Below are positions 9,234 through 34,169 of a stretch of DNA of 51,016 bases, piece after piece. Numbering within the stretch: position 1 is the stretch's first letter; every line of letters starts with the position of its first letter. The stretch lies in NCBI GenBank assembly GCA_024400305.1, contig JAKSMX010000019.1:1-51016 (forward strand), read 5' to 3'. Made by a program: the position numbers and the translations under genes. The notes below the pieces were generated by a model. It was not told the DNA's origin and searched no databases. It saw only the letters and a program-made list of their open reading frames with translations. Source of the DNA: Bacteroidales bacterium (GTDB lineage: Bacteria > Bacteroidota > Bacteroidia > Bacteroidales > F082).

Positions 9234-9328
9234 CCGTGCATTCAGATGTGAGAAATTTGCTAAACTCGTCGGCAATATTGTTTCATATTCTTTTTGTTAA
9301 TATTTTATCAATCAATAATTTATATGTT

Positions 9329-9796
9329 ATGGCAAATACATATACAAAAATCTATGTGCATTTTGTTTTTGCGGTGCAACATAGGCAATGCCTCATCAAG
9401 AAGGCATGGAAAGACGAGCTTTACAGATACATCAACGCAACAATAACCAACAAAGGTCACAAACTCTATGCAATAGGCGGAATGGCAGACCATCTGCATC
9501 TGCTCGTCAGCATGAACCCCGACCAATCAATGTCATCGTTCATTGCCGATGTCAAACGCAGCTCGGCAATGTGGATAAATCAAATGTTCCTCCGTCCGGG
9601 AATTTTCGCGTGGCAACGTGGTTTCGGGGCATTCACATATTCAAAAAATGACGTTCACAATGTTGCAAATTACATTGAAAACCAAGAAGAACATCATAGG
9701 AAACGGAATTTTCATGATGAATATGTAAAATTGTTGGAAAAACACGAAATCGAATACGATGAACGGTTCGTTTTCAAACAGGTTGAAAAAAATTGA
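9329..9796 (+). CDS. IS200/RAYT-like Y1 tyrosine transposase
   Basis: From the ATG at 9329 the protein has 155 residues, the normal size for a Y1 (HUH) single-strand transposase. The HUH metal-binding motif DHLHLLV is at 54-60 with His55 and His57. The catalytic tyrosine is probably Tyr115 in NYIENQEEHH. The gene is alone, with no tnpB and no obvious IS200 ends, but is flanked on both sides by palindromes of one family in opposite orientations. That is the arrangement of REP-associated tyrosine transposases, which are thought to spread REP hairpins. An ordinary IS200/IS605 element is the alternative. Confidence 0.8.
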   Translation: MANTYTKIYVHFVFAVQHRQCLIKKAWKDELYRYINATITNKGHKLYAIGGMADHLHLLVSMNPDQSMSSFIADVKRSSAMWINQMFLRPGIFAWQRGFGAFTYSKNDVHNVANYIENQEEHHRKRNFHDEYVKLLEKHEIEYDERFVFKQVEKN

Positions 9797-11382: not shown

Positions 11383-11403
11383 TTGCCCCACTCGCCGCAA
11401 TCG

Positions 11404-11448
11404 GTTTGCCCGACGAAATTTCGTCATCGCAGACGAAGTCGGGCAAAC
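11404..11448. terminator. Hairpin between the two C1 peptidases
   Basis: GTTTGCCCGAC at 11404-11414 pairs with GTCGGGCAAAC at 11438-11448, with a further small hairpin (GACGAAATTTCGTC) inside. There is no T-run, so it may be a processing or weak termination signal rather than a strong terminator. Confidence 0.55.
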
Positions 11449-11498
11449 TCAAAACAAAGAATGTGTAACAATTAATTATAATTTAAAAATTCAAACAA

Positions 11499-12722
11499 AT
11501 GAAATTTAAAAGTTTTTTAGTGGCAGCGGCTCTTTTGGTGAGCATGCCAGCATTCGCACAGGAAAGCGAATCGAAGACAGAAGATGAAGGCTACAAATTT
11601 GAGGTCATCAAAGAATTGCCCATCACTCCGGTGAAAGACCAGAACATGGCCGGCACATGCTGGTGCTATTCGACACTCGGCTACTTCGAGGCTGAACTCC
11701 TCCGCATGGGCAAGCCGGAGTACGATTTCTCGGAGATGTACATCGTTCACAAGACTTACGAAGACCGCGCCGAGAAGGCTGTCCGCACACACGGCGACGT
11801 CAGCTTCTCACAGGGCGGCTCATTCGGCGATGTCATCTACGCCATCCGTCACTACGGCCTCGTGCCTGACGTTGAGATGAGCGCAGGCCAGATGCACGGC
11901 GAGACACTCTCCGACTTCTCGGAATTCTCAAGCGTATGTGACCCGTTCGTTGAGGGCGTCATCAAATGCAAGAAACTCCAGCTCGGCCCTGATCACAAGC
12001 CGCTCTGGAAGAACGCCCTCGTCGGCATCCTCGACGCATACCTCGGAAAATGCCCGGAGGAGTTCGAATATAACGGCAAGAAATACACTCCTATGTCATT
12101 CGCTGAGTCAACAGGCCTCAACATGGACGACTACGTGAACATCGCCTCATTCGCACACCAGCCTTGGTACGAACAGTTCGTCATCGAGGTCCAGGACAAC
12201 TGGCGCTGGGGCATGGCTTACAACATGCCAATCGACGAATACATGCAGGTACTCAACAACGCCATCGAGAAAGGTTATCCTATCGCATGGGGTGCTGACG
12301 TCAGCGAGAGAGGCTGGCTCAGAGGCAAGATGTCGGGCATCTGCGTGCTCCCCGACCTTGAGAACGCAGCGTCAGACAAGGCCGGCACCGACTACGCACA
12401 CTGGAACGGCCTCAGCGCAACAGACCGCCAGAAGGAAGCCATGAACCACCCGACACCACAGCGCATCGTCAGCGACCAGGACCGCATCGACGCCTATAAC
12501 AACTACGAGACAACCGACGACCACGGCATGGTCATCTACGGCAAGGCCAAAGACCAGATGGGCAACGAATACTTCATGGTCAAGAACTCATGGGGCGACG
12601 CCGGCAACTACAACGGCATCTGGTACGCATCAGAGGCTTTCGTGCGTTACAAGACCCTGAACTGCATCGTCCACAAAGACGCTCTTCCGAAAGACATCAG
12701 AAAGAAACTCGGAATCAAGTAG
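11499..12722 (+). CDS. Secreted C1 peptidase, PepC-like, paralogue of the preceding gene
   Basis: The 407-residue product has a signal peptide ending near residue 20 (PAFAQ) and the same catalytic residues: Gln48, Cys54 in AGTCWCYS, His342 in DDHGMVIYG, and Asn363 in VKNSWG. The two proteins align throughout with shared segments such as GEVI/GDVI, DDYV and VKNSWG, so they arose by tandem duplication. It ends in KKLGIK. C1B enzymes often auto-process a C-terminal residue, and both copies keep a KKLG tail. Expected location is periplasm or surface. Confidence 0.88.
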   Translation: MKFKSFLVAAALLVSMPAFAQESESKTEDEGYKFEVIKELPITPVKDQNMAGTCWCYSTLGYFEAELLRMGKPEYDFSEMYIVHKTYEDRAEKAVRTHGDVSFSQGGSFGDVIYAIRHYGLVPDVEMSAGQMHGETLSDFSEFSSVCDPFVEGVIKCKKLQLGPDHKPLWKNALVGILDAYLGKCPEEFEYNGKKYTPMSFAESTGLNMDDYVNIASFAHQPWYEQFVIEVQDNWRWGMAYNMPIDEYMQVLNNAIEKGYPIAWGADVSERGWLRGKMSGICVLPDLENAASDKAGTDYAHWNGLSATDRQKEAMNHPTPQRIVSDQDRIDAYNNYETTDDHGMVIYGKAKDQMGNEYFMVKNSWGDAGNYNGIWYASEAFVRYKTLNCIVHKDALPKDIRKKLGIK

Positions 12723-21134: not shown

Positions 21135-21246
21135 GTTATTTGGTTGTGTTCTTGTTGTGAAATCAATAATTTAATAATAATATAAAATGAGTTTTGAAGG
21201 CAATAAAATTTTTCGTTGACAATGACGGTTATTCGCCGAATTTATG

Positions 21247-21254
21247 TATTTTTG
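21247..21254 (+). promoter_or_regulatory. -7 element upstream of the structured RNA
   Basis: TATTTTTG at 21247-21254. TTGAC at 21216-21220 is too distant to be a standard -33 element. Transcription would start near 21260. Confidence 0.45.
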
Positions 21255-21308
21255 CCGGAAATTTTTAACAACAATATTATGTAGAACAAACGACATATTG
21301 ACATATAA

Positions 21309-21480
21309 ATAGCGGTTCGAAGCTATTCTTGATACTCAAATTACCACAATTGTCCGAGAGGGCACACCTTCAAGAATAAGTTTCCAGTTCGCCATCTTCG
21401 CATGGCGTGGAATGACTTGTTAGAAGGTGTGGGTGTGGTAGCCCAGAGTATCAGGCAAGATTTACTTCCACGCCTTTTTT
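21309..21480 (+). ncRNA. Structured leader or small RNA with alternative terminator
   Basis: A small hairpin (ATAGC 21309-21313 with GCTAT 21322-21326) precedes a long rod: TGATACTC 21330-21337 with GAGTATCA 21446-21453, TACCAC 21342-21347 with GTGGTA 21435-21440, CACACCTTC 21363-21371 with GAAGGTGTG 21423-21431, AATAAG with CTTGTT (one G-U), TTCCA 21382-21386 with TGGAA 21408-21412, and CGCCAT 21390-21395 with ATGGCG 21402-21407. The 3' arm GGCGTGGAA (21404-21412) can instead pair with TTCCACGCC (21466-21474), which is followed by six T: an alternative terminator. The XRE gene starts 17 bases later. It could be a riboswitch-like attenuator or a free RNA such as 6S; I cannot assign a known class. 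Confidence 0.65.
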
Positions 21481-21496
21481 ATGTCGTGTCGCGAAA

Positions 21497-21847
21497 ATGG
21501 CAGGCAAAGTGAAGAACAGCGGCGGTTTGCATATCGGGTGTCTTGTGAAATCGGTCTTCGACGCGAGTGGGATGACGGTGTCGGAGTTCGCGCGGCGGAT
21601 AAACTGCGAGCGCACCAACGTCTATAAGATTTTCGACCGCCGTTCCATTGATGTTGAGCTGCTTGTGAGAATTTCCGAAATCCTGAACCACAATTTCCTC
21701 GCCGATGTCATGAGACACCATGGTTTTGAGACGAAATCAATTACCCAGTTAAGTCTGAGTATCACTTTTGATGACCTTACGGAAGAGAACATCGCGGTTT
21801 TGTCGAAAGCCGTTGAATCGTTGAAAGGCTCGCATAAAAACCGTTGA
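21497..21847 (+). CDS. XRE-type helix-turn-helix regulator
   Basis: The 116-residue protein has one helix-turn-helix at about 20-60 (MTVSEFARRINCERTNVYKIFDRRSI), followed by a helical tail. The pattern VYKIFDRRSID is typical of small Bacteroidales XRE regulators. It lies directly after the structured RNA's alternative terminator and 127 bases upstream of the CXXX-peptide precursor on the same strand, so it is the likely local regulator. Its operator is not identified. Confidence 0.75.
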   Translation: MAGKVKNSGGLHIGCLVKSVFDASGMTVSEFARRINCERTNVYKIFDRRSIDVELLVRISEILNHNFLADVMRHHGFETKSITQLSLSITFDDLTEENIAVLSKAVESLKGSHKNR

Positions 21848-21911
21848 AAAATTATCACGTTTTTGTGAATTGTAATCACGGTTGGAATACAGGTTGTTTT
21901 TGGGGATGTTG

Positions 21912-21919
21912 TAAATTTG
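21912..21919 (+). promoter_or_regulatory. -7 element of the precursor peptide gene
   Basis: TAAATTTG at 21912-21919, about 55 bases before the ATG at 21975. This gives the RiPP operon its own promoter. Confidence 0.5.
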
Positions 21920-21974
21920 CGGCGAAAAATATAACATACATTTTTAAAAATAATACATCCAAAAATTTAAAAAA

Positions 21975-22259
21975 ATGAAAGAAGAAAACAAAAAGGAAGA
22001 AATTCAATCAAGGAGAGAATTCTTCAAGGAAGCAGCGAAAGGAGCACTGCCTATTTTAGCTTTTACTATGTTGGGTTCAACATTCCTGACTTCTTGTAAA
22101 AAAGATGATGACGGACATGGAAGTGGTTGTGGCTCTAAATGTACTGGTTCTTGCGAATCTTCCTGCTCTGGCGATTGCGACGGTGGTTGCTCTAACAACT
22201 GTGACAGTTTCTGTGGCGGAGACTGCTGGGCTTATTGCGAGTCACAGTACAAAAGCTAA
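21975..22259 (+). CDS. CXXX-repeat RiPP precursor with Tat lipoprotein leader
   Basis: The 94-residue peptide has three parts. Residues 1-41 are a Tat signal: the twin-arginine motif SRREFFK at 12-18, a hydrophobic stretch at 24-37 and the lipobox LTSC with Cys41. Residues 42-47 are KKDDDG. Residues 52-88 hold ten cysteines at exact four-residue spacing (52, 56, 60, 64, 68, 72, 76, 80, 84, 88), separated by small polar residues and ending WAYCESQYKS. This is the substrate type of CXXX-repeat radical SAM maturases, whose three maturation proteins follow directly. I infer that each Cys can be crosslinked to a neighbouring residue in the cytosol before Tat export as a folded lipoprotein. The final linkage is unknown. 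Confidence 0.88.
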   Translation: MKEENKKEEIQSRREFFKEAAKGALPILAFTMLGSTFLTSCKKDDDGHGSGCGSKCTGSCESSCSGDCDGGCSNNCDSFCGGDCWAYCESQYKS

Positions 22260-22275
22260 ACAAATTGTTCGTCAG

Positions 22276-22310
22276 GAGGATATGTGGAAATCCTCCACAT
22301 ATCCTCTTTT
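22276..22310 (+). terminator. Attenuating terminator between precursor and maturase genes
   Basis: GAGGATATGTGGA at 22276-22288 and TCCACATATCCTC at 22294-22306 form a perfect 13-bp stem with a 5-base loop followed by TTTT. Placed 16 bases after the precursor stop, it would let the precursor be made in excess over the enzymes. Confidence 0.85.
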
Positions 22311-22324
22311 AAAACAAAGGGCAA

Positions 22325-23497
22325 ATGAAAAAATCCATTACTTTTATTGTTACTAAGGATTGTCAATTAGCATGTAAATATTGCTATCTTGTCGGCAAGA
22401 ATAGCAATGAGCGAATGACATGGGATGTCGCGAAGAAAGCAATTGATTACATTCTCAATCACGAAGATGATTTCCAGGACGAAGGCGTTATTTGGGATTT
22501 CATCGGAGGTGAACCGTTTTTGGAAATAGATTTGATTGACAAAATCTGTGATTACATAAAAACTGAGATGTATGTACGTAACCATCATTGGTTTAATGAT
22601 TATATTTTCTCATTTACAACCAATGGTCTAAACTACAGTAGTGATAAACTTCAAAATTATATAGCCAAAAACAAAGACCATCTTAGCATTACAATTACTA
22701 TCGACGGAACAGAAAGGAAGCATGACCTAAATAGAATTTACAAAGGAAGTGGCAAAGGTTCCTATAAAGATGTAGTTAAGAATATTCCTCTTTGGTTAGA
22801 GCAGTTTCCTACAGTTGGTACAAAAATAACCATTAGTAGTGCAGACATACCTTATATTAAGGAAAGTGTTATGCATGTGTATCAATTAGGTATAACTGAA
22901 GTCCATATAAATTGTGTTTTTGAAGATGTTTTTGTCGAGGGAGATGACAAACTCTTTGAAGAACAGTTGTTATCTCTAGCAGATGAGATAATAGACAACG
23001 GATATTATAATGACCATACTTGTTCATTTTTCGAAGAAAGAATAGGAAAACCTTTGGATCCTGTTAAGCGAAACAACAATTGGTGTGGAGCTGGAAGAAT
23101 GTTGTCAATAGATGCAGGTGGAAATTTCTACCCATGCACTCGCTTTGCACAATACTCGTTACGAGACAAGAAGGCATGGATTATTGGTAATGTAGAAAGT
23201 GGAATTGACCAAAACAGGTTACGTCCATTCTTGCTTCTTGACCGTTGCACACAAAGCCCTCAAAAGTGTATTGATTGTGAAGTTGCAAGCGGTTGCGCAT
23301 GGTGTCAAGGTGAGAATTACGACACGGCAGAAATCCCTACTGTATATCAACGTGCTACTGCTATATGTAAAATGCACAAAGCCCAGGTAAGAGCTAATAA
23401 CTACTATTGGAACAAGTTATACAGAAAACTTGAACTTGAAGGCTTACGTGAAAAGTTTGAAGAAAATCGTCCACAACCAAAACAAGAAATTTGCTAA
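22325..23497 (+). CDS. Radical SAM/SPASM peptide maturase, CXXX-repeat target type
   Basis: This 390-residue enzyme carries the radical SAM 4Fe-4S motif CxxxCxxC at Cys13, Cys17 and Cys20 (KDCQLACKYCYLVGK), the GGEPFLE SAM-binding segment near 57-63, and a SPASM C-terminal domain with further cysteines (WCGAGRMLSIDAGGNFYPC, then CTQSPQKCIDC, CAWC) for auxiliary clusters. It fits the radical SAM peptide maturases that act on CXXX-repeat peptides; the precursor lies directly upstream. The expected chemistry is formation of thioether or carbon-centred crosslinks on the Cys-rich core. The gene is AT-rich compared with tatAC. Confidence 0.88.
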   Translation: MKKSITFIVTKDCQLACKYCYLVGKNSNERMTWDVAKKAIDYILNHEDDFQDEGVIWDFIGGEPFLEIDLIDKICDYIKTEMYVRNHHWFNDYIFSFTTNGLNYSSDKLQNYIAKNKDHLSITITIDGTERKHDLNRIYKGSGKGSYKDVVKNIPLWLEQFPTVGTKITISSADIPYIKESVMHVYQLGITEVHINCVFEDVFVEGDDKLFEEQLLSLADEIIDNGYYNDHTCSFFEERIGKPLDPVKRNNNWCGAGRMLSIDAGGNFYPCTRFAQYSLRDKKAWIIGNVESGIDQNRLRPFLLLDRCTQSPQKCIDCEVASGCAWCQGENYDTAEIPTVYQRATAICKMHKAQVRANNYYWNKLYRKLELEGLREKFEENRPQPKQEIC

Positions 23498-23501
23498 TGT
23501 T

Positions 23502-24467
23502 ATGTTACAATATCTCATTATATTATTAGATGACAGTAGCACCTCATATTGTCATTATGATTCGTTAAGCACAAATCGATTGATTGGACTTCCTGATTTA
23601 GCAGAGGGTATCAAATTCGCGATGAAAGAAAATCTTATGATTCAATTTGTTTATCCAGACTTCGATTTGCCTACAGAATACAAGAAGTTGATAGAAACAA
23701 TTGATCACTCTAAGATAATGCCTTCAACGTCACCTTTGTTGGATGACGCAGACATCATTGTTTTCAATAATTGGAAAGAACTTGTAGGGAGTCTTTCAAC
23801 TGACAAGTCAACATGCGTTTTGCGAATCACGAAGGAAGACCTGTTTGCCCAAAAAGAATTAGTGAAGCTTTCAGTAGGCAAGTTCTTACGTCTAAATATT
23901 GTAATAACAAATGTAGACTCATTCACAGAAGCAGAATTGCAGGAATATAAAAGTGTGATAAGTGCATTAGGAAAAGAAGTTGAACGATTATTCGGTTTAG
24001 GTCAATCTCCACAAATAAACTTGATTACAGACAGGATTGCCTTAACAAAAATGAATAACTGCAACGCAGGATGTAATAATATCACTCTTGCTCCTGATGG
24101 CAATTTTTATGTTTGCCCAGCTTTTTATTACTCAGGCGAAGAAGATAAGACAGCTTTCAATATAGGTAATCTGCAAAGTGGTTTAAAGATAAAATCTGCG
24201 AATTTATATAAATTGCCATATGCTCCTTTGTGCAGGAATTGTGATGCGTATCAATGTAAGCGTTGTGTATGGATAAATCGCAAGATGACATATGATATTA
24301 CCACTCCTAGCCACGAACAATGTGTATTGGCTCACATAGAGCGTAATGAGAGCCGGAGAGTACTAGAATCAATTAGAAAAGAAAAGGACCTTTACCCAGA
24401 ACAAGATATTCCTGAAATTGAATATTTGGATCCGTATGAAGTGAGGGTAGATTGGCATAAAATGTGA
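23502..24467 (+). CDS. CXXX-repeat peptide maturase, SPASM-like without rSAM motif
   Basis: From the ATG at 23502, four bases after the preceding stop, the protein has 321 residues; a longer in-frame start would overlap the upstream gene by 68 bases. The N-terminal two thirds has no CxxxCxxC radical SAM motif. The C-terminal part has a SPASM-like Cys pattern: CNAGCNNITLAPDGNFYVC, CRNC, CKRC and a last Cys near residue 281. It matches the second maturase of CXXX-repeat systems, which I take to be a degenerate radical SAM partner that binds substrate or relays electrons. Confidence 0.8.
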   Translation: MLQYLIILLDDSSTSYCHYDSLSTNRLIGLPDLAEGIKFAMKENLMIQFVYPDFDLPTEYKKLIETIDHSKIMPSTSPLLDDADIIVFNNWKELVGSLSTDKSTCVLRITKEDLFAQKELVKLSVGKFLRLNIVITNVDSFTEAELQEYKSVISALGKEVERLFGLGQSPQINLITDRIALTKMNNCNAGCNNITLAPDGNFYVCPAFYYSGEEDKTAFNIGNLQSGLKIKSANLYKLPYAPLCRNCDAYQCKRCVWINRKMTYDITTPSHEQCVLAHIERNESRRVLESIRKEKDLYPEQDIPEIEYLDPYEVRVDWHKM

Positions 24468-24474
24468 ATAGAAA

Positions 24475-24747
24475 ATGACAAAAAAGAAAGTTGGTTCAGT
24501 TACGCCAGAAGAGCGTGATGAAATTCAAAAATTATTCAAGAGACACGTAGGTTTGGCAGAACTTGCAAAGATAATAACTGCAGATAATGTCGAGTTATAC
24601 GAAAAAGTTGTTAATGATTTAGGCGAAGTCAATACGACATTCCAAAATTGGTGGAGATCCAAAGGTGAAAAATACAAATGGGAAAGCACCGAAAACGGCA
24701 ACTGGGAAATCAATTTTGACACTTGTGAGATTTTCTTAAACTTCTGA
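24475..24747 (+). CDS. CXXX-repeat peptide modification system small protein
   Basis: The 90-residue product is acidic-basic and helical ([26 protein letters not shown]), ending in a beta-like [22 protein letters not shown]. It corresponds in size and place to the small conserved protein that accompanies CXXX-repeat radical SAM clusters. It may recognise the leader or deliver the precursor. The spacing of seven bases on one side and two on the other shows that it belongs to the operon leading into tatA. Confidence 0.75.
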
Positions 24748-24749
24748 TT

Positions 24750-24983
24750 ATGAATAGTCTGATGGTACTTTTGAATATTGGCGGGCAGGAAATACTGATT
24801 ATCCTGCTCATCGTTCTCGTGCTTTTCGGCGGACGCAAGATCCCGGAGCTGATGAAGGGTCTCGGGAAGGGAGTCCGTGAATACAAGAAAGCGATGAACA
24901 GTGTTGAAGACGATTTGAACGGGAATCCGGAACCTGACAAACAGCCCGGCGACGGCATCCGTGAGCGAATCGCTGACAAATAA
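24750..24983 (+). CDS. tatA: Sec-independent translocase subunit TatA/E
   Basis: The 77-residue protein has one N-terminal membrane helix ([16 protein letters not shown]), the conserved [24 protein letters not shown] hinge and amphipathic helix, and a polar tail. TatA oligomers form the pore for folded Tat cargo. It starts two bases after the CXXX modification gene and is followed by tatC. ATG at 24750 and a second at 24762 are both usable. Confidence 0.92.
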
Positions 24984-24989
24984 TAAAAC

Positions 24990-25802
24990 ATGCCAAAATC
25001 GGAAAATACTTTCTGGGGACACGTCGAGGTCCTCAGGTGGGTTATCATACGTTGCCTGCTGGTGATAGTGGCGGTGGCGGTGACGGCGTTTGCCTTCAAG
25101 GAGTTTGTCTTTGACGGCATTGTGCTGGCACCGCTGCGGCAGGATTTCGCTACGTACGAACTTCTGTGCCGTATTGCGTCAGTCCTGTCGATGCCTGGTC
25201 TGTGTCCGACGATACATCCTGTCGAGATAATAAACATAAACCTCACGGCGCAGCTTTTCACGCACATGGGCATCGCCTTTGTTTGCGGGTTGATAGTCGC
25301 ATTCCCGTATCTCACCTTGGAGATTTGGTTTTTCGTGAAACCGGCCCTTTATTCCAATGAGAAATCCGCTGCGGTCAAAGGCGCGTTCTCGTTCCTTCTG
25401 CTGTTTTTCCTCGGTGTCGCGACGGCATATTATATCATTTTCCCGTTGACACTCAATTTTTTGGGAACATATCAGGTCAGCGCGACCGTCGGAAACCAAA
25501 TCTCACTCAATTCGTACATCAGCACTTTCCTGACGCTTGTCTTTCTGCTCGGCGTTGTGTTTGAGATGCCGATTGTGGCTTATTTCTTCGCTGAAATCGG
25601 GTTGCTGAAATCTGAATTTCTCAAAAAATACCGCAAGGTCGCGATAGTGATTATCATGATTCTTGCGGCCCTGATAACACCGAGTACCGACGCTTTCACC
25701 ATGATGCTTGTCGTCTTGCCGCTGTGGATGCTGTATGAAGTCAGCCGCGGCGTTGTGAAAAGGGTCGAGAGGAAAAATGCTTCCTTAAAAGCTGAACAGT
25801 AG
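24990..25802 (+). CDS. tatC: Sec-independent translocase subunit TatC
   Basis: The 270-residue protein has six membrane segments and the TatC hallmarks: an N-terminal FWGHVEVLRWVIIRC, a FEMPIV motif in VVFEMPIVAYFF, and LITPSTDAFTMMLVVLPLWMLYEVS near the end. TatC recognises the twin-arginine motif. A tatAC pair without tatB is normal in Bacteroidota. Base composition is richer in GC than the RiPP genes just upstream, so these two may be resident genes next to which the RiPP cassette was acquired. Confidence 0.95.
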   Translation: MPKSENTFWGHVEVLRWVIIRCLLVIVAVAVTAFAFKEFVFDGIVLAPLRQDFATYELLCRIASVLSMPGLCPTIHPVEIININLTAQLFTHMGIAFVCGLIVAFPYLTLEIWFFVKPALYSNEKSAAVKGAFSFLLLFFLGVATAYYIIFPLTLNFLGTYQVSATVGNQISLNSYISTFLTLVFLLGVVFEMPIVAYFFAEIGLLKSEFLKKYRKVAIVIIMILAALITPSTDAFTMMLVVLPLWMLYEVSRGVVKRVERKNASLKAEQ

Positions 25803-25935
25803 CTGATTTTGATGTTTCGTATCATCTACCCCCGTTTCAGCCAAATGGCGAAAAACTTGGGTGTATAGGTCAAAACGTGTACTGTTAGCTATAAGAAGCA
25901 GTGGTGCCAAAATTATTAATTTAAATTTCATACAT

Positions 25936-25986
25936 AAACGATTTACACTTTGCAAAAATATTCACAAAGTGTTTTTATAAATCGTT
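25936..25986. repeat. Interrupted inverted repeat downstream of tatC
   Basis: AAACGATT 25936-25943 pairs with AATCGTTT 25979-25986 and ACACTTTG 25945-25952 with CAAAGTGT 25965-25972; a TTTTTG tail follows. It may terminate the operon or act as an operator. The rest of 25803-26057 shows no gene. Confidence 0.6.
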
Positions 25987-26057
25987 TTTGTGCTGCCAAT
26001 TCGACATCAGACAGATGCGATTATTGCATCATTTGATGATATTTGTCAAGGTCAAGT

Positions 26058-27497
26058 TTATTCAAACAGCTCATCCATTTTCACCTCGCTGTTCACGATT
26101 CCGGAATGAATGCCCTGGGCGACACCGAAAGTAGTGACAAACGTCGTGACTATCGACTTGCGGCATCGTGTGGATTGTTTGAAAAGTTCCATCCTTTCAC
26201 GCAGCTTTTCCTCATAATCCCTGTTGATGACAAACATATTCCTGCTGAATTTCATTTCACAGAGGTTGACCATCCTGTCAGATCTGTCAAATATCAAGTC
26301 AATCTGTGAGCCAGCGTCTCCATTCCCTTTTCCAGCTGCCTTCCTCCACGATGACATGTTCGTCGAAATCCCTGATATTCCAAGTGCTTTCTTAATTTGG
26401 TCGGAATGCATCATGCAAAGCAGCTCAAAAGTCACTCCCATCCATGATTCAACACTGTGTGTCAGGAAGTTATGACTCCACCAATGTTCATCGCCGCTTG
26501 TGTCATTGTCTATAAACTTGTAATAGAAAAGTGTGTAGAAGTCAGTGAGTCTGTATATCGAATCTTTGGTTTTTCCGCCGTACATATTTGATTTTGAAAC
26601 GAAATCGCAACGGACGAGATTCCGCAGGATACGAGTCAAGACACCACCGTCAACCCCGACTATCTTGGAAATATCATTGCGGCACATTCCTTCACGATGG
26701 CCAGCCAATGCCTTTACTATTGAAATATAATGCCCTGCCTGTGAAAAAACCGCACTGTAAAGTTCCTCGAACTCAATCCTTAAAGCTCCGTTTTTCCTGA
26801 AGCACAACTCATCTACGTTTTGGATGAGACTGCGGCTTCCGTCAAGAAGGCTCAGGTAAAACGGCACTCCGCCGAAAAGCATGTAACATTGCAAAATCTG
26901 GTATCTGTCCCAGTAACAATTGTGATTCCTCAAATACTTTTCGGTTTCATTAAGGTTAAAGGGACGCAAATAGATGCTGTTCGTGATACGCGCGTGCAGT
27001 CCCCCTTTGTTATCAACGAGTTTATCCATCATCCACGAACTCGCCGAACCGCTTGCAATAAACATTATATCATTCCTGCGGGCGGCCCAACCGTTCCAGA
27101 AATTCTCCAGAGCTTCGACAAACTCTGACTTCTGCGTGTCAATCCATGGCATCTCATCCACGAACACGACTTTTTTACGAACATCGCTTATTCCGTCAAG
27201 ATGGTTTTCTAATGCCTCGAAGGCATCAAACCAATCGTCGAATTTGAATTGTTTGTTGGTGCTTGTTTGTTGTCGTAGAGCTTTCGCGAAATTCTGAAGC
27301 TGGCGTTTCTTTTTCAAGCCATGTCCGCCAACAAATGTGAAATCAAAAGCACCTCCGAAATACTTGTCAATTAAAAAAGTCTTTCCGACGCGACGTCGCC
27401 CATAGACGATGACAAACTCCGAGCGGCCAGATTCCATACAACGTTTCAGTTCTTCGCATTCACGTTCTCTACCAATCAAGATTTCCTCTTTCATCAA
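26058..27497 (-). CDS. AAA ATPase with DUF234/PD-(D/E)XK C-terminus
   Basis: The 479-residue protein has Walker A GRRRVGKT at about 33-40, Walker B KVVFVDEMPW at about 108-117, a sensor-like FIASGSASSW and a winged-helix middle. The C-terminal domain shows GSQIDLIFDRSDRMVNLCEMKFS: an Asp and an E-x-K spaced as in PD-(D/E)XK nucleases, here apparently intact. This architecture is a common but uncharacterised Bacteroidota ATPase, suspected to act in defence or DNA repair. It differs from the DUF4143 protein at 338, which lost its ExK. ATG at 27497 or the adjacent codon both fit. Confidence 0.85.
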   Translation of the reverse strand: MMKEEILIGRERECEELKRCMESGRSEFVIVYGRRRVGKTFLIDKYFGGAFDFTFVGGHGLKKKRQLQNFAKALRQQTSTNKQFKFDDWFDAFEALENHLDGISDVRKKVVFVDEMPWIDTQKSEFVEALENFWNGWAARRNDIMFIASGSASSWMMDKLVDNKGGLHARITNSIYLRPFNLNETEKYLRNHNCYWDRYQILQCYMLFGGVPFYLSLLDGSRSLIQNVDELCFRKNGALRIEFEELYSAVFSQAGHYISIVKALAGHREGMCRNDISKIVGVDGGVLTRILRNLVRCDFVSKSNMYGGKTKDSIYRLTDFYTLFYYKFIDNDTSGDEHWWSHNFLTHSVESWMGVTFELLCMMHSDQIKKALGISGISTNMSSWRKAAGKGNGDAGSQIDLIFDRSDRMVNLCEMKFSRNMFVINRDYEEKLRERMELFKQSTRCRKSIVTTFVTTFGVAQGIHSGIVNSEVKMDELFE

Positions 27498-27551
27498 ACA
27501 TTATTTTTTGCAAAAATACTTAAAATACGCCAATAAAACATACAAAACATC

Positions 27552-27600
27552 GATTTTTTACCCAAATCCATGTTTTTTTATGCGATTTGGGTAAAAAATC
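27552..27600. repeat. Perfect 17-bp inverted repeat
   Basis: GATTTTTTACCCAAATC at 27552-27568 is the exact reverse complement of 27584-27600, with a 15-base spacer. It lies between two minus-strand genes. On either strand the hairpin's 3' arm ends in A or T runs, so it could be a terminator for the gene at 27697 or an operator for the ATPase. Confidence 0.8.
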
Positions 27601-27696
27601 AACAAGTGAAACCTTTTGACAAACGAATTTTCAATGGAAAACGACATCTATTGGTGACATGAGAAACCCAAATTCCTTTTTTTTATGATTTGAAAA

Positions 27697-28686
27697 TCAC
27701 CTTAAAAACCCCTTTGTCTCATTCTCCGTCAGTTCCCTGAAATCGCAGGTGCTTGCTATTGTCCCATTGTCAGTAAATACATAAACCGGAAACCTCCCGA
27801 ACGTTATATCGAGTGACATATACGGCGAGATGAACCAAAATTCGCAATCCTCCGTGCCGGTTCCTTTCATAAATTCAATTATATCCTCATCGTAACCCCA
27901 AATCAGAAACTTCAAATGTTTTTCACTGATTTTGTTGTGTTCCAAAATCATCATCAGCTTTTCTGAACCCATCTTGCAGAACCTGCAACCGGCTGAAACA
28001 TAACTGATTATGTATTTGTCATCTGAAATGTCCAATCTTGCGAAGCTGTCACGTTTAATAATTATGGTGTCGTTTTCGTGAATGAAATCAAGTTTGACAA
28101 TGTTTATTGAATCGTGCAGGCTGTTTTCGAATGCCATTGTGTTGATATTGTTGTCTTTAGACACGATTTTGTTGTAAACCGAATCCATCGGGAAAACGAC
28201 AAACGGAAGTATCACTGCCACCGCAATTGAGATTCCTGCCAGCCATTTCCTGAACTTTGGTTTGTAAACTGCGTCTTTTTCTTTTCTTATGGCAAGCAAT
28301 AACAAAATTGAAACAATGTTCTTGTAAATTGATTCTGAAGGATTTAGCTTTATCAATTCCCCGAAGCAGTTGCAATTGTCATCGTTTCTGAAAATCATGA
28401 CATAGACAAGGAACAGTGTGAAACCGGCCATCATCAGCGTTGAAAGCCACCAAACCTTTTTATAATATATTTTGAAAATCAAACAGAATCCCAACAGTAT
28501 TTCGGCGGCTATCAGCAATCTTGAGAAAACGGTTGTCAGCGTGAAGCTGAAGATGCCGAAACTGTAGATGTAGATTTCAAAATTGTCGATTGACAGAAGT
28601 TTGAGTACCGCTGCCGTGACGAGCATCAAGCCAAGAAGCAGTCTCGCCGCTGTTTTTGAAGTTTTGAGAAGCAATTCTTTTTTCAT
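27697..28686 (-). CDS. MauE/DoxX-like membrane protein fused to thioredoxin-like domain
   Basis: The first 165 residues form four or five membrane helices with the MauE-family signature NCNCFGELI. After a further hydrophobic segment comes a periplasmic domain with a thioredoxin-like redox pair in VSAGCRFCKMGSEK and later FPVYVFTDNG, the cis-Pro region. MauE-type proteins work in periplasmic disulfide or thioether formation, so the fusion suggests that reducing equivalents are passed to the attached thioredoxin domain. The partner is unknown. It is followed on the same strand by nothing close. Confidence 0.75.
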   Translation of the reverse strand: MKKELLLKTSKTAARLLLGLMLVTAAVLKLLSIDNFEIYIYSFGIFSFTLTTVFSRLLIAAEILLGFCLIFKIYYKKVWWLSTLMMAGFTLFLVYVMIFRNDDNCNCFGELIKLNPSESIYKNIVSILLLLAIRKEKDAVYKPKFRKWLAGISIAVAVILPFVVFPMDSVYNKIVSKDNNINTMAFENSLHDSINIVKLDFIHENDTIIIKRDSFARLDISDDKYIISYVSAGCRFCKMGSEKLMMILEHNKISEKHLKFLIWGYDEDIIEFMKGTGTEDCEFWFISPYMSLDITFGRFPVYVFTDNGTIASTCDFRELTENETKGFLR

Positions 28687-28730
28687 GGCATGACAGTCAA
28701 ATAATGGCCGCGAATGTTGTCATTTTGGCA

Positions 28731-29939
28731 TCAATGTTCTTTCAGGATCTGCATCAGCGTGTCGATGCTTGTCTTATAGTCGTCCATGTTGTCTTTCTTC
28801 ACAGGGTCGGAGCTTGGTGACTTGAACTTCAGCGGGTCGATGTATGTGCCGTTTTTCTGGAGGCGGAAGTCGAGGTGCGGGCCTGTCGATGCGCCGGTGC
28901 TTCCGACGTAGCCGATGGTCTGTCCTTGTTTCACCTTGCTGCCTTGCGCAACGCCTTTGGCGAAACCTTTCAGGTGCATGTAAGTCGTCGTGTATGTGCT
29001 GTTATGCTTGATTTTCAGATAGTTGCCGCCACCTTTCTTGTCCCAGCCTTTGGCGATGACGGTGCCGTCGCCGATAGACTGGACTGGTGTTCCGGCCGGA
29101 GCCGCGTAGTCAACGCCGTGGTGAGGGCGCACGACGTGGTAAATAGGGTGCATCCTTCCGTTCGAGAACTTCGAGCTGATGCGGCGGTAGTTCAGAGGAG
29201 CTTTCAGAAACGCCTTGCGCAGGCTCTGGCCTTTGTTGTCGTAGTAGTCGCCGCGACCGCCTTGTTCATAGTAAAACGCGTAGTGTCCTTCGCCTCCGTT
29301 TTTCAGATATGCCGCCAGGACATCGCCGGTCCTGTAAGGGACGCTGTCGCCTTCGATGATGTATTCTTTGTAAATGGCCTTGCATGAGTCGCCCGACTGG
29401 ATGCCGAAGAAATCGACAGTCCAGGCGTAGATGTCCGACAATTCAAGTGTCAACGACGGGTCGCAGCCGGCGTCGCTTAACGCGTTCCACAGGCTCGACT
29501 GTATCTCGACGCCGACGTGGGCGATTCTTTCTGTTACTTCTTTTTCATAACGCCAAGCTGGCAGCGAGTCTGTCAGCCCGAAAATCGCATAATTTGTGCG
29601 GTCGATTTCATAAATCCAGTATATCGGTTGAGGCACGCTGTCGCGGGTCATCAGGAAAACATAGTTGCTCCCGACCTTGATCTTTCTCGTGTCAAAAACG
29701 TCGCGCTTGTTCATGGCAATCTCATGAACCACGCTGTAATTGACACCTTCTTTTTGCAAAATCTTTGAAAGTATATCGTTTTTCTGAACTTTCCCTTCTA
29801 TCACATCCAAGGTGTCTATGCATATCTCGCAATAATATCGATGTTCGACTTCCTTGTGGTTTTTTTTGCCACCATTGGATTTGTTTCCGCAAGAAAAAAA
29901 GAAAAGTGCTATTATTAATAATGGTAGTATTTTCTTCAT
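28731..29939 (-). CDS. M23 metallopeptidase lipoprotein (LytM domain)
   Basis: The 402-residue protein has a lipoprotein signal with FFSC and Cys17. A central LysM/OapA-like region is visible (KVQKNDILSKILQKEGV), and the C-terminal LytM domain has HHGVDYAAPAGTPV with the zinc-binding His and Asp and the second motif HLDFRL with its His. It probably cuts cell-wall crosslinks at the inner face of the outer membrane. It lies 44 bases upstream of the MauE-thioredoxin gene on the same strand, so the two may be cotranscribed. Confidence 0.9.
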   Translation of the reverse strand: MKKILPLLIIALFFFSCGNKSNGGKKNHKEVEHRYYCEICIDTLDVIEGKVQKNDILSKILQKEGVNYSVVHEIAMNKRDVFDTRKIKVGSNYVFLMTRDSVPQPIYWIYEIDRTNYAIFGLTDSLPAWRYEKEVTERIAHVGVEIQSSLWNALSDAGCDPSLTLELSDIYAWTVDFFGIQSGDSCKAIYKEYIIEGDSVPYRTGDVLAAYLKNGGEGHYAFYYEQGGRGDYYDNKGQSLRKAFLKAPLNYRRISSKFSNGRMHPIYHVVRPHHGVDYAAPAGTPVQSIGDGTVIAKGWDKKGGGNYLKIKHNSTYTTTYMHLKGFAKGVAQGSKVKQGQTIGYVGSTGASTGPHLDFRLQKNGTYIDPLKFKSPSSDPVKKDNMDDYKTSIDTLMQILKEH

Positions 29940-29963
29940 AAAATAAAAGTTTTAGTCAAAATC

Positions 29964-29994
29964 CAGAGGTCAAGGTGATTAATCCTGACCTCTG
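29964..29994 (-). terminator. Hairpin after iorB
   Basis: CAGAGGTCA 29964-29972 pairs with TGACCTCTG 29986-29994. Read on the minus strand it follows the end of iorB and precedes a T/A-rich run. Confidence 0.65.
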
Positions 29995-30023
29995 AATCCT
30001 AACTTTTGACGGTAATCGTCAAA

Positions 30024-30596
30024 TTATCTTTTTGTCGCCTGCTCGTAACCTGCTCTGACGGCTTTGATGTTGGAATCGACGACATCCTGTCCTTTGCTGC
30101 CGAAGATGTGTACGATAGCGGCCTCGACCTTGTCCATCTCAATGCCGAGATAAGGCACCGTTGCGCCGAGGAGCACCATGTTTGAACGTGCGCCGATCTT
30201 CTTGGCGATGTCGTTGGCGTTGAAACTCACGACGTTGCCGAGTTTGTTGAGTTCGCCGTTGATGACATCCATGTCGGGGTAGTTCTTGATGTTGACGAAA
30301 GGCTCGCTGTTGGTGATGACCCAGCCTTCCTTATTGAGCCAGGGCAGGTAGCGGAGCGCTTCCATCGGCTCGCTGGAGAGGATGATGTCGGCCTGTCCTT
30401 CCGGAATGACATCGGCGTAGATCTCGCCGGTTGAGATGCGGAGGTGTGAGAACACCGAGCCGCCGCGCTGCGACATGCCGTGTATCTCCGACTGTTTCAG
30501 GGTCATGCCCATGTTCAGTGCGGCATCAGAGATGATCTTCGCGACAGAGACAATGCCGTCTCCGCCGACACCGCATAATACTATATCTTTCTTCAT
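30024..30596 (-). CDS. iorB: Indolepyruvate ferredoxin oxidoreductase, beta subunit
   Basis: The 190-residue protein matches the gamma-like domain of 2-oxoacid oxidoreductases: VLCGVGGDGIVSVAKIISDAA, then SEIHGMSQRGGSVFSHLR. With IorA it oxidises aryl pyruvates to aryl acyl-CoA, passing electrons to ferredoxin, for aromatic amino-acid breakdown or, reversed, synthesis. It is 28 bases downstream of iorA and clearly cotranscribed. Confidence 0.92.
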   Translation of the reverse strand: MKKDIVLCGVGGDGIVSVAKIISDAALNMGMTLKQSEIHGMSQRGGSVFSHLRISTGEIYADVIPEGQADIILSSEPMEALRYLPWLNKEGWVITNSEPFVNIKNYPDMDVINGELNKLGNVVSFNANDIAKKIGARSNMVLLGATVPYLGIEMDKVEAAIVHIFGSKGQDVVDSNIKAVRAGYEQATKR

Positions 30597-30624
30597 TTCG
30601 AGTATTTTTTAATTCGTTAATACA

Positions 30625-32205
30625 TTATTTCTTGAGGTGTTTCTTGAGTTCCACGAGGCAGGTGCGGTGAGGTATGATTACCGACACGCCGTTGTAGTTG
30701 ACTTCTTCCTCGATGATCCTGACGTTTTCCTCATGGTTCTTCGGGAGCGGCACGATGTCGCGGATGTGCTCCGGTTCGACGCCGAGGCCTTCGCAGATGC
30801 GGCGGATTTTGTTGTTGGCCGATGAAGGCTGGCCGCCGGTCATGGCTGTGATGTCGTTGTCGAGAATCATGATGACGACGTTGGCTTTCTCGTTGACGCA
30901 GTCGAGCAGGCCTGTCATGCCGCTGTGTCCGAATGTGCCGTCGCCGATGACGCCCACTGCCGGGAAGATACCCACTTCGGAGGCGCCTTTCGCCATGGTG
31001 ATTGACGCGCCCATGCACACCGTAGTGTTGATGGCTTTCATGTTGAAACCGAGGGTGTAGCAGCCGATGTCGCCGAACACCTTGCCGCCTTTATGGTTGG
31101 CCATGACAGCGTTGAGGGCGTTGTAGCTGTCAACGTGCGGGCAGCCCTGACATAGCGCAGGCGGGCGGTTGACGACGACTTCCGGAACCGTGTGCGTGGC
31201 GGCGGCTTTGATGCCGAGAGCCTTGGCGACCTTCTCCGCATTCAGTTCACCGTCGCGTCGGATGGTCTCGTCGAGACGTCCCATGACTTTCTTGCCTTTG
31301 CCGAGGAATCCTTTGATCTGCTCTTCAACGAACGGCTGGCCGTCTTCGAGGACGAGGATCTCGTCGCATTCATCATAAAGTCTGTTGACCATACTGAACG
31401 GCAGCGGGTACTGTGTTATCTTGACGATCGGATGCGGGCATTTGCCGTCCTGGAAGTTCTCCATGAGATAGTTGTATGCGATGCCTGTGGTGATGATTCC
31501 AAGACGCTTGTCGGCGCCGTCGATGTATTTGTTGTAGCCCGACTCTTCGGATGCCTTGGTGAAGCTATCCTGTTTGTCAATGAGTTCACGGTAGAGGCGT
31601 TTTGCGTTGGCGGGGAGAAGCACGAATGACTTGGCGTCGGCCGGTTCGGTGATTTCGTTCTGCTTGCGAATCGGCTTGCGGACGATGCCTGCGCGGCTGT
31701 GTGCGAGACGTGTTGGGATGCGGTAAAGCACCGGCGTGCCGAGTGTCTCACTCAACTCGAAACCGAAATGCACCATGTCGTAGGCTTCCTGCTGGTTCGA
31801 AGGTTCAAGCATCGGAATCATAGCCCAGTGTCCGTAGAAACGGCTGTCCTGCTCGTCCTGTGATGAGAACATGCTCGGGTCGTCGGCCACGACGACAAGC
31901 ACGCCCTTGGTGCCGATGATGGCTGAATTCATGAACGGGTCGCCGCAGACGTTGAGACCCACGTGCTTCATGCATGTCATGGCACGTTTGCCCGCATACG
32001 CGACACCGATGGACGCCTCCAAGGCTGTCTTCTCATTCGCACACCAGTTGGCACGGATGCCAAGCTCCTTGGCTTCCTTTGATTTCATTACGTATTCCGT
32101 AATCTGTGTCGATGGAGTGCCCGGATAACTGTTGATGGCGCTTCCACCAGCATCAATGAAACCCTGTGCTATGGCTTCGTCACCGAGTAATAAGATTTTG
32201 TTCAT
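30625..32205 (-). CDS. iorA: Indolepyruvate ferredoxin oxidoreductase, alpha subunit
   Basis: The 526-residue protein has the pyruvate-ferredoxin-oxidoreductase N-terminal domain (SYPGTPSTQITEYV) and the thiamine-diphosphate domain with GDGTFGHSGMTGLLDCVNEKAN and LDNDITAMTGGQPS. Archaeal IorA proteins carry a C-terminal double 4Fe-4S ferredoxin domain; here the protein ends HRTCLVELKKHLKK and lacks that domain. The CQGCPH motif near residue 375 is kept. Electron transfer must therefore use a separate ferredoxin. Confidence 0.93.
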   Translation of the reverse strand: MNKILLLGDEAIAQGFIDAGGSAINSYPGTPSTQITEYVMKSKEAKELGIRANWCANEKTALEASIGVAYAGKRAMTCMKHVGLNVCGDPFMNSAIIGTKGVLVVVADDPSMFSSQDEQDSRFYGHWAMIPMLEPSNQQEAYDMVHFGFELSETLGTPVLYRIPTRLAHSRAGIVRKPIRKQNEITEPADAKSFVLLPANAKRLYRELIDKQDSFTKASEESGYNKYIDGADKRLGIITTGIAYNYLMENFQDGKCPHPIVKITQYPLPFSMVNRLYDECDEILVLEDGQPFVEEQIKGFLGKGKKVMGRLDETIRRDGELNAEKVAKALGIKAAATHTVPEVVVNRPPALCQGCPHVDSYNALNAVMANHKGGKVFGDIGCYTLGFNMKAINTTVCMGASITMAKGASEVGIFPAVGVIGDGTFGHSGMTGLLDCVNEKANVVIMILDNDITAMTGGQPSSANNKIRRICEGLGVEPEHIRDIVPLPKNHEENVRIIEEEVNYNGVSVIIPHRTCLVELKKHLKK

Positions 32206-32336
32206 ATTTGTATATTTTTAAAGTTGATTCTTCTGTTTTTTAAAATGGCAAAGATAACGTTTTTTTCAATATGGAAGGCAAACTTTTCAGTAAATCTTTA
32301 AATTTTAAAAATGAGCGCACGTATTGAAAATATTTA

Positions 32337-32344
32337 TATCTTTG
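32337..32344 (+). promoter_or_regulatory. -7 element of the acyltransferase gene
   Basis: TATCTTTG at 32337-32344 lies about 40 bases before the ATG at 32385, in the 179-base space shared with divergent iorA. Confidence 0.55.
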
Positions 32345-32384
32345 CAACTTATTTCGGATTTATCAATTTTGAAGATTTTGAGAA

Positions 32385-34169
32385 ATGAAAACGTTGTTGA
32401 CAAGTAGTGATGTCGTCAGATGGTTGCATCTGAAGCCTGTATTCAAGCCATTTGTGTGTATGGCTTTGAACATTATCGGTTTCAAGAAAATCAACAGGTT
32501 GTATTCGCCGTCGGCGGATCTGCACGACAAGGAATTCGTGCAGGATATGCTGCGCAGGTATAACATAAAATGCGACATAAATGAGAATGATTACAGCTGT
32601 GTTCCGAAGGAGGGCGGGTTTGTGGTTGTCAGCAACCACCCGTTCGGAGCCATCGAAGGCTTGATACTTTACGATGCAATAACGAATGTCCGTCCGGATT
32701 TCAAGGTCATGGCCAACTTCATCCTTTCAAAAATCCCAAATCTCAAAGACGTCTTTTTCTCGGTAAATCCTTTTGAAAACAACAAAAGCTGGAGCAGCAG
32801 CGCCAACGGCATCAAGGCTTCGATAAACCAACTGGCGGAGGGTCACGGGCTCGGCGTGTTCCCGGCCGGTGAGGTGTCACGCTATCACGGAAACAAGTTC
32901 CCCGAAGACATCAAATGGTCGGCTTCCATCGCGAAAATGATAAAGAACATGAACGTGCCTGTCATACCGGTCTATTTTGACGGCAACAACTCCCATAAGT
33001 TCTATGTCTTCGCGAAAATAAACTCCTTCCTCGCCACGTTGCGCCTCCCGAAAGAGATGCTGAACAAGCGTAACAAAAAGATTGTCATGAAGATAGGGAA
33101 ACCCATCCTGCCTTCGGAAATGACCATGTACGAGAAACCTGAAGATCTCGCAGCTTATTTGAGAAGCCGCAGCTATTCGCTTCAGGCCAATATGATTGAG
33201 GAAAGCAACAAAAAGCGTTTCAAGTTCTCGGTGCCTATCGCGGCTCCGGTCAGAGCGTCGCTGCTTGTCCGCGAGCTTAACTCGATCCGCAAGTCATCGT
33301 TGCTTTTCACGACCGCTGAATATGAATGCTATCTCGCTGATTATAACAGGATTCCGCGCGTGATGCATGAAATCGGACGACGCCGTGAGGAAGCGTTCCG
33401 CGCCATCGGCGAGGGAACGGGCAAAGGTGTCGATACCGACGAATACGACAAATACTACAAACACCTGATTCTCTGGGACACAAAGGAACAGGCTGTCGCA
33501 GGCGGCTACCGCCTCGGACTCGGCAATGAAATCATGGAAAAACATGGGATAAAAGGCTTCTACATAAACTCGCTGTTCAACATCGATGAACCTGTATTTG
33601 ATAAGATGAAGAAGACCATCGAACTCGGTCGTTCATACGTCTCCGTTGATTATCAGAAAGATATACTGCCTCTCATGCTCCTCCTGAAAGGTCTGATGTT
33701 CTCGGTTGTCAGATACCCGGAAATGGATTATTTCATCGGACCGGTCAGCATAAGCAGCTGGTTCCCGAAATTCTATCAGAGCATGATGGTGTATTATATC
33801 AGGGAGATGCATTCCGCACCTGAAGTGGCGCAGTACATCCACCCGACCCACCCGTTCACATGCAACTTCAACAAGGTTGACATAAAAGTTCTCATGGAGA
33901 AGAACATGGATTCTGTCGATAAGTTCGACCGCTACCTGATGAAACTCAGCAACAACGATTACCGTATGCCGACTTTGTTCAAGAAATATCTTAAGATCAA
34001 TGCCAAATTCTTGTGTTTCAACGTTGATCCGGATTTCAACGACACACTCGACGGACTGTTGTTCCTGCGTTTCGAGGATTATCCTAAAGATGAAATCCTC
34101 ATGATGACAAAAGATTGCACCGCGGAAGAAAGAGCCGCGCTGCTCAAACGTTTCGGCTACGAGGCCTGA
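32385..34169 (+). CDS. Bifunctional aminolipid acyltransferase (OlsF/GlsA-GlsB-like)
   Basis: The 594-residue protein joins two domains. Residues about 1-275 are a PlsC-type O-acyltransferase with NHPFGAIEG (catalytic His and Asp-equivalent region) and FPAGEVSR. Residues about 295-594 are an OlsB/hemolysin-like GNAT N-acyltransferase (DKYYKHLILWDTKEQAVAGGYRLGLG). This fusion is the layout of OlsF. In Bacteroides the two halves are separate GlsB and GlsA proteins that make glycine lipids. The likely product is an N-acyl, O-acyl aminolipid on glycine or ornithine; the amino acid cannot be read from sequence. It converges with recX 23 bases away. Confidence 0.85.
   Translation: MKTLLTSSDVVRWLHLKPVFKPFVCMALNIIGFKKINRLYSPSADLHDKEFVQDMLRRYNIKCDINENDYSCVPKEGGFVVVSNHPFGAIEGLILYDAITNVRPDFKVMANFILSKIPNLKDVFFSVNPFENNKSWSSSANGIKASINQLAEGHGLGVFPAGEVSRYHGNKFPEDIKWSASIAKMIKNMNVPVIPVYFDGNNSHKFYVFAKINSFLATLRLPKEMLNKRNKKIVMKIGKPILPSEMTMYEKPEDLAAYLRSRSYSLQANMIEESNKKRFKFSVPIAAPVRASLLVRELNSIRKSSLLFTTAEYECYLADYNRIPRVMHEIGRRREEAFRAIGEGTGKGVDTDEYDKYYKHLILWDTKEQAVAGGYRLGLGNEIMEKHGIKGFYINSLFNIDEPVFDKMKKTIELGRSYVSVDYQKDILPLMLLLKGLMFSVVRYPEMDYFIGPVSISSWFPKFYQSMMVYYIREMHSAPEVAQYIHPTHPFTCNFNKVDIKVLMEKNMDSVDKFDRYLMKLSNNDYRMPTLFKKYLKINAKFLCFNVDPDFNDTLDGLLFLRFEDYPKDEILMMTKDCTAEERAALLKRFGYEA

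Follow-up and report, generated by a model that had tools for sequence, protein, structure and literature searches.

Introduction

The closest described relatives of the system studied here are four NCBIfam families, TIGR04115, TIGR04116, TIGR04117 and TIGR04119, whose models name a CXXX-repeat peptide, one of the ribosomally synthesised and post-translationally modified peptides (RiPPs), and its enzymes. All four match a single locus in a 51,016-nucleotide stretch of Bacteroidales DNA (GenBank assembly GCA_024400305.1, contig JAKSMX010000019.1, positions 1 to 51,016 of the forward strand), hereafter the window, three of them well over the cut-off and the precursor slightly under. The RiPP genes of this locus are followed by tatA and tatC, which code for a twin-arginine translocation (Tat) translocase, and the precursor begins with a twin-arginine leader. 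We found no paper in the open literature under the family names or accession, and the module with tatAC, its exchange and its alternative with an ATP-binding cassette (ABC) transporter are in no paper that we found.

Other known systems share some of these traits. The AC3_0185-type Cys-rich RiPP (TIGR04118) has the same maturase family and a Cys-rich core but, as represented here by locus L047 (33.4 bits against TIGR04118, cut-off 35), it combines a precursor without twin arginines with an ABC transporter and a subtilase-like gene, the latter named by eye. The maturases of the PapB and SCIFF ranthipeptides are the nearest characterised kin of the window maturase in our searches (NF047865 and PDB 5WGG). 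According to the accessible part of PMC9413430, PapB joins Cys to Asp or Glu within CX3D/E motifs, in contrast to the CXXXC ladder of the window family. Bufferins and other RiPPs modified by multinuclear non-haem iron-dependent oxidative (MNIO) enzymes are, in the accessible part of PMC12452194, likewise Cys-containing peptides with a real signal peptide instead of an ordinary leader, but they rely on Sec and MNIO enzymes whereas the window module has Tat and radical S-adenosylmethionine (SAM) enzymes. Finally, Tat lipoproteins and Bacteroidota surface lipoproteins show the same succession of twin arginines, hydrophobic stretch, lipobox and acidic tail; by contrast, the cargo in the window is a small modified peptide with a putative exporter encoded alongside. 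Tat export of a RiPP was not described in any title or abstract opening listed by our searches of the open literature, so that an earlier mention elsewhere is possible; the accessible parts of PMC10352776, PMC12452194, PMC8326336, PMC13289728 and PMC7470986 gave no relevant match to Tat terms.

Results

Between positions 21975 and 25802, the plus strand of the window carries the precursor, the radical SAM maturase, a TIGR04119 and a TIGR04116 protein, tatA and tatC, in this order (Table 1). A first-pass annotation made from the sequence alone had proposed precisely this arrangement, and the enzymes (TIGR04115, TIGR04119 and TIGR04116) as well as both Tat subunits score above their curated cut-offs. 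tatA begins 2 bp after the TIGR04116 gene, as annotated, and the gap between tatA and tatC is 6 bp and not eight. The ten Cys in exact CXXX spacing, the SRREFFK motif and the lipobox that the annotation had read in the precursor are all present. Read by eye, the twin-arginine motif and the hydrophobic stretch that follows it, SRREFFKEAAKGALPILAFTML, form a Tat-substrate motif, and the Cys of the LTSC lipobox lies 28 residues past the first Arg. The ensuing CKKDDD conforms to the rule for Bacteroidota surface-lipoprotein signals (acidic residues preceded by basic or polar ones) in the accessible part of PMC5080379, where the Capnocytophaga lipoprotein export signal is given as C-X-K-(D/E)2-X. 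Since its score falls below the curated cut-off, the precursor is a close relative of the TIGR04117 family and is not filed as a member. The radical SAM maturase matches the profile of PDB 5WGG (E 2.9e-31), and scores 197.5 bits against the PapB model NF047865, under the cut-off of 340, which leaves it outside the PapB family. The second maturase most likely starts at the ATG at 23502, 4 bp past the radical SAM stop; its N-terminal half had no family match in the profile search, and Cys 17, 187, 205, 244, 247, 252, 255 and 274 are invariant in 41 homologues.

This layout is widespread among relatives of the maturase. A scan of named genomes yielded 404 maturase relatives, the best 80 of which were kept; with eleven flank regions and the window they make 92 loci, or 87 once the near copies L055, L083, L100, L101 and L127 are dropped (L and G handles denote loci and genomes, respectively). 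As the loci were found via the maturase, its presence everywhere is by construction. The adjacency of tatAC elsewhere, on which the first-pass proposal depended, was borne out: tatC occurs on the same strand within 6 kb downstream in 70 of the 80 judgeable loci among these 87. The others comprise 10 loci with room and no TatC, and 7 without TatC on contigs with less than 5 kb. In most loci the TIGR04116 gene, tatA and tatC overlap or lie a few bases apart. Because the layout recurs in so many judgeable loci, chance is not a reasonable explanation. The family itself is uncommon: TIGR04115 exceeds its cut-off in 2 of 60 genomes drawn from the family, 12 of 393 from the order and 6 of 395 from the phylum, with the window's own genome counted in each draw. 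Of the 12 Bacteroidales genomes that have TIGR04115, 9 show an adjacent tatC.

Twin arginines are widespread in the precursors. These were called as frames shorter than 260 aa on the strand of the maturase in which five or more Cys recur every four residues, a single miss being tolerated at a time; 67 of the 87 loci have one or two, 15 have three to six and 5 have none. An xRRx[FLIVM] motif is found in 141 of the 150 distinct called precursors (two of them seen only in near-copy loci), so that the sharing of twin arginines by related precursors, also left for checking by the annotation, is confirmed. SRREFFK is the commonest form (53). The motif was allowed anywhere in the frame, and for 139 of the 141 precursors it starts at most 60 residues from the called start; the hits include at least one spurious-looking frame (L068). 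The nine precursors without it, all kept in the denominator, are spurious-looking frames (L054 with 247 aa, L077, L111 with 50 aa), the contig-cut L110 or frames with doubtful starts. Among loci with an adjacent TatC and a called precursor, 66 of 67 have twin arginines, the exception being L110, cut by the contig end. A hydrophobic-Pro pair stands 11-12 residues past the first Arg in 136 of the 139 twin-arginine leaders of the nonredundant set, and the residues between the ladder Cys are mainly Ser, Gly, Thr, Lys and Asn. The designation "Tat lipoprotein leader" holds for the window precursor but does not extend to the family: one rule finds a lipobox in 37 of these 139 leaders, and a stricter one, confined to the region outside the Cys ladder, in 34. 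At least two acidic residues occupy positions +2 to +6 in 25 of these 34, versus 1 of the 105 others. Of the 105 leaders without a lipobox, 104 match a very permissive A-x-A-like pattern; the 105 may be released by ordinary signal peptidase.

The tatAC genes appear to have a history of their own. Positions 21982-24738 of the window are 85.5% identical in DNA to L049, with radical SAM proteins 94% identical, while the TatC proteins are only 39-40% identical. On the downstream side, the window shares its chromosomal site with L110 (96% DNA identity over 24670-26870 and 92% over 27484-34054). The L110 maturase gene has 67% DNA identity to that of the window and its protein is 93% identical to the maturases of L114, L081 and L037, kin which elsewhere sit beside TatCs about 40% identical, as happens with the window's L049. 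A third locus, L246, lies at another site in the same genus; it shares on its left the helix-turn-helix (HTH) gene and the leader (84% DNA) and on its right the end of the TIGR04116 gene and tatAC (TatC 96%), with a third cassette in between. The TatCs of the window, L110 and L246 are thus 95-96% identical, and their radical SAM enzymes only 72-78% alike. A shared TatC with differing maturases therefore points to different cassettes beside one tatAC, with a junction near the boundary between the TIGR04116 gene and tatA, where GC content passes from 0.33-0.41 over the cassette to 0.48-0.52 over tatAC. The window's site is occupied in three relatives from the genus by anaerobic ribonucleotide reductase genes (named by eye), and the six stretches compared at that site (L247-L252) yielded no tatAC. 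Over 70 loci, distances correlate less between maturase and TatC (r 0.36) than between the two maturases (r 0.65), each value being reached in 0 of 2000 permutations. From these comparisons, tatAC looks like an exchangeable export partner that is not inherited together with the cassette. The annotation's view that the cassette is followed by "its own" tatA-tatC is consequently not upheld, as the window's tatAC is unlike that of its closest cassette and is common to two others.

A different exporter accompanies the enzymes in five loci. L262-L264 come from three genomes that belong to a different family within the phylum. The leaders of their candidate precursors, of which SRELLHRVSRKTLPGLAF is an example, keep a K-x-LPG stretch and lack twin arginines; an ABC transporter comes after the TIGR04119 gene, and neither tatAC nor TIGR04116 was found in the stretch compared. 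L047, from the window's order, contains a candidate precursor without twin arginines, an ABC transporter (by homology), the subtilase-like gene, a fused maturase and TIGR04116. On plasmid pAPRE01 of Anaerococcus prevotii (L270, NC_013164.1), an annotated ABC transporter lies downstream of a fused maturase, and the 56-residue protein before the maturase, with a four-Cys ladder and no twin arginines, is a tentative precursor only. Twin arginines thus occur in the candidate precursors of 0 of 5 ABC-type loci versus 66 of the 67 TatC-adjacent ones (Fisher p 4e-7, the loci not being independent). Four ABC-type genomes were searched and have one TatC each, elsewhere in the genome; the missing twin arginines are therefore not due to a missing Tat system. 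The idea that the peptide "needs Tat" is thus conjectural for the window and fails if taken for the whole enzyme family. TIGR04116 was also considered as a Tat-specific chaperone, L262-L264 being without both it and twin arginines, and this was dropped since the ABC-type L047 has it. As a separate observation, L270 is a conjugative plasmid on which a class III lanthipeptide cluster adjoins the fused CXXX maturase and the ABC transporter. A 6.8-kb unverified faecal "bacteriophage" record (L272, MT837480.1) holds the whole module with tatAC and is probably bacterial DNA. A maturase relative is present on one plasmid and in two faecal "phage" records that lack annotation, which was insufficient to claim a mobile element carrying the module.

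The window is contig 11 of a genome of 2.86 Mb in 76 contigs, which has a second, divergent tatA-tatC (G000:C33:15839-16540, L002) beside an mfd-like gene (named by eye), its TatC being 35% identical. At least two TatC matches were counted for 6 of the 12 system-bearing genomes versus 17 of 317 other TatC-bearing Bacteroidales genomes (Fisher p 4e-5; both two-TatC counts were made by eye and some second matches are partial or weak, such as the partial one in G408 and that under the cut-off in G383). A quick TatC tree of 131 rows, 51 cassette-adjacent and 80 comparison rows left after near-copy removal and enriched for high scorers, contains an exclusive clade of 43 adjacent TatCs (Shimodaira-Hasegawa-like approximate likelihood ratio test, SH-aLRT, 96). 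The other adjacent TatCs fall in a mixed seven-row clade (five adjacent), in the pair formed by the window and L120, and, for L046, alone among others. The tree demands five label changes versus about 41 in shuffles, and its starred branches force three of the five. The approximately unbiased test rejects the grouping of all 51 in one clade (p-AU 0.005), which supports the acquisition of adjacent tatAC at least twice, two origins being supported and the rest perhaps one. The four separate origins that the quick tree draws were not borne out, the 50 without L046 being compatible with one clade. Two TatC glutamate positions are kept in 49/51 and 50/51 adjacent and 77/80 and 56/80 other TatCs; no conclusion rests on them.

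Discussion

The Tat system takes folded cargo. It is quite probable that the module makes a multiply modified Cys-repeat RiPP exported by Tat, with tatAC as an exchangeable exporter. The precursor would be synthesised in the cytosol, where the TIGR04115 radical SAM enzyme, aided by the TIGR04119 and TIGR04116 proteins, would modify the CXXX core, probably with thioether crosslinks by analogy to its characterised kin, recognising the leader partly via the LP motif downstream of the twin arginines. The finished, compact product would then be taken up by TatAC through the SRREFFK leader, signal peptidase II would lipidate Cys41, and the acidic KKDDD tail may target the resulting lipopeptide to the surface of the cell. 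If TatAC waits for a folded substrate, modification would come before export. Cassettes have been exchanged next to one and the same tatAC, and where the precursor lacks twin arginines the module contains an ABC transporter. Modification in the cytosol followed by Tat export is the simplest reading: it would explain why Tat leaders accompany tatAC and plain leaders an ABC transporter, and how premature export is avoided. The chances are about even for a more demanding version in which Tat couples maturation to export by accepting nothing but the finished, crosslinked peptide, its preference for folded cargo serving as quality control. Here the exporter would be an exchangeable module, joined to cassettes of different origin and acquired on more than one occasion; ABC transporters would take its place, with the twin arginines correspondingly absent, and one branch would make a surface lipopeptide. 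Export of the folded product by Tat would let the cell finish the peptide before it leaves. The family also constitutes a natural experiment, since the same enzymes occur in two settings, one pairing a Tat leader with tatAC and the other a plain leader with an ABC transporter. Provided that CXXX peptides count as ranthipeptides, such peptides may be overlooked, to judge from the accessible part of PMC13289728.

Several observations weigh against export by Tat. The named loci, kept as the 80 best of 404 relatives, lean towards near kin and come mostly from metagenome-assembled genomes (MAGs). Adjacent tatAC is missing in 3 of the 12 Bacteroidales maturase genomes and in all 5 others from the phylum draw, so that the linkage is confined to one large part of the family. 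ABC-transporter-like genes also occur near the TatC-adjacent L073 (5.9 kb upstream) and L080 (other strand), and TIGR04116 does not track Tat, being present in the ABC-type L047 and not found in L262-L264. Moreover, all 15 loci without adjacent tatAC that have a called precursor keep the twin arginines (7 of the 17 such loci are contig-cut), among them L044 and L045, and two genomes of family f145 show twin arginines, seen in both, with a lipobox and no adjacent tatAC; twin arginines could therefore serve another TatC or have another role. Such a role is central to an unlikely alternative, whereby the twin arginines belong to a RiPP leader recognised by the radical SAM enzyme, the peptide is Tat-independent and tatAC is adjacent by shared descent. 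The conservation of the leader as a whole agrees with it, as does the fact that a single clade of the 50 adjacent TatCs without L046 is not rejected (p-AU 0.11), so that adjacency in most loci may be shared descent. However, the leaders of L262-L264 keep K-x-LPG without twin arginines and have an ABC transporter downstream, exchange of the cassette leaves tatAC in its adjacent place, and L046, at least, has an adjacent TatC of separate origin.

Slightly less unlikely, although still improbable, is that tatAC is simply the host's general Tat system, with many substrates, placed after the cassette. The adjacent tatC is indeed the sole one found in G098, G433 (88% complete) and G438, where the Tat-signal profile TIGR01409 finds few candidates, but this profile scarcely detects CXXX leaders either, and a census of Tat substrates based on it was rejected as too insensitive. 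Against a general role stand the additional tatAC of the window genome, the single TatC match of 300 of the 317 other genomes compared with two in half of the system-bearing ones, and the 43-row clade made solely of CXXX-linked TatCs among the rows tested. The ladder might also bind a metal or an iron-sulfur cluster without covalent crosslinks, Tat being used because the metal-loaded peptide is folded; the regular Cys spacing suits this idea and Tat commonly carries cofactor-loaded proteins, but we hold it to be doubtful, since the module's radical SAM enzyme is related to PapB and to the 5WGG enzyme, kin of thioether-forming maturases. An assembly artefact at the junction between cassette and tatAC might likewise account for the step in GC content in one contig of a 76-contig assembly; this is very improbable given that nearly the same tatAC is joined to further cassettes in two other genomes (L110, L246). 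Export of the modified peptide by Tat thus remains the preferred reading.

Other features of the window and of related loci

Table 1. Features of the module in the window, with positions counted from its first letter.
Feature	Positions	Strand	Evidence and remarks
Small HTH (Cro/C1-like) protein, possible module regulator	21497..21847	+	PF13443, 21.3 bits vs cut-off 22 (weak)
CXXX-repeat RiPP precursor, 94 aa	21975..22259	+	TIGR04117, E 7.9e-12, 45.1 bits vs cut-off 50
Twin-arginine motif SRREFFK, residues 12-18	22008..22028	+	From sequence; LP 12 residues past first Arg
Lipobox LTSC (Cys41), then KKDDD resembling Bacteroidota lipoprotein export signal	22086..22097	+	From sequence
CXXX core, ten Cys, residues 52-88, exact spacing	22128..22238	+	From sequence
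15-bp RNA hairpin then U4, precursor-maturase interval	22274..22308	+	-26 kcal/mol, z -6.2 vs 200 shuffles
Radical SAM/SPASM maturase, CXXX family	22325..23497	+	TIGR04115, E 1e-185, 617 bits vs cut-off 350
Second maturase, SPASM-like C-terminal half	23502..24467	+	TIGR04119, E 3.5e-66, 223 bits vs cut-off 150
CXXX repeat peptide modification system protein, 90 aa	24475..24747	+	TIGR04116, E 3.4e-27, 94 bits vs cut-off 50; 40-sequence alignment
Probable cassette-tatAC junction	24670..24747	+	blastn segments: L049-like DNA (21982-24738) yields to L110-like (24670 onward)
TatA	24750..24983	+	TIGR01411, 63.1 bits vs cut-off 53.9; PF02416
TatC	24990..25802	+	TIGR00945, 149 bits vs cut-off 132.7; PF00902, E 6.6e-58; placed in TatC tree

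Two elements might regulate the module. Related HTH genes occur in 20 of the 87 nonredundant loci, the window included, upstream and on the same strand in 14 of these 20, and in G448 the HTH gene is kept together with the module at a different site (window 21205-22054, 84% DNA). The hairpin between precursor and maturase, which the terminator scan did not list, is a possible attenuator or 3'-end stabiliser and could allow excess precursor synthesis.

Besides the module and the HTH gene, other families recur, each in 4 to 8 loci. One of them, secreted-looking and about 287 aa long in L088, is present in that locus and in seven more, where it lies on the same strand and upstream, a median of about 950 bases before the maturase start. 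L068 shows apparently duplicated TIGR04119, TIGR04116 and tatA stretches within the module, 3164-5578 bases past the maturase start. L095, L098, L102 and L126 are filed as Bacillota MAGs, with maturases 72-77% identical to that of the window, and are possibly misbinned contigs. Elsewhere in the window, positions 9221-9796 and 10171-12722 contain an IS200-like transposase gene and two neighbouring C1-type peptidase paralogues, named by eye, and the minus strand codes at 27697-28686 for a membrane protein with a MauE domain (PF07291), partly similar to the BT_3928 family.

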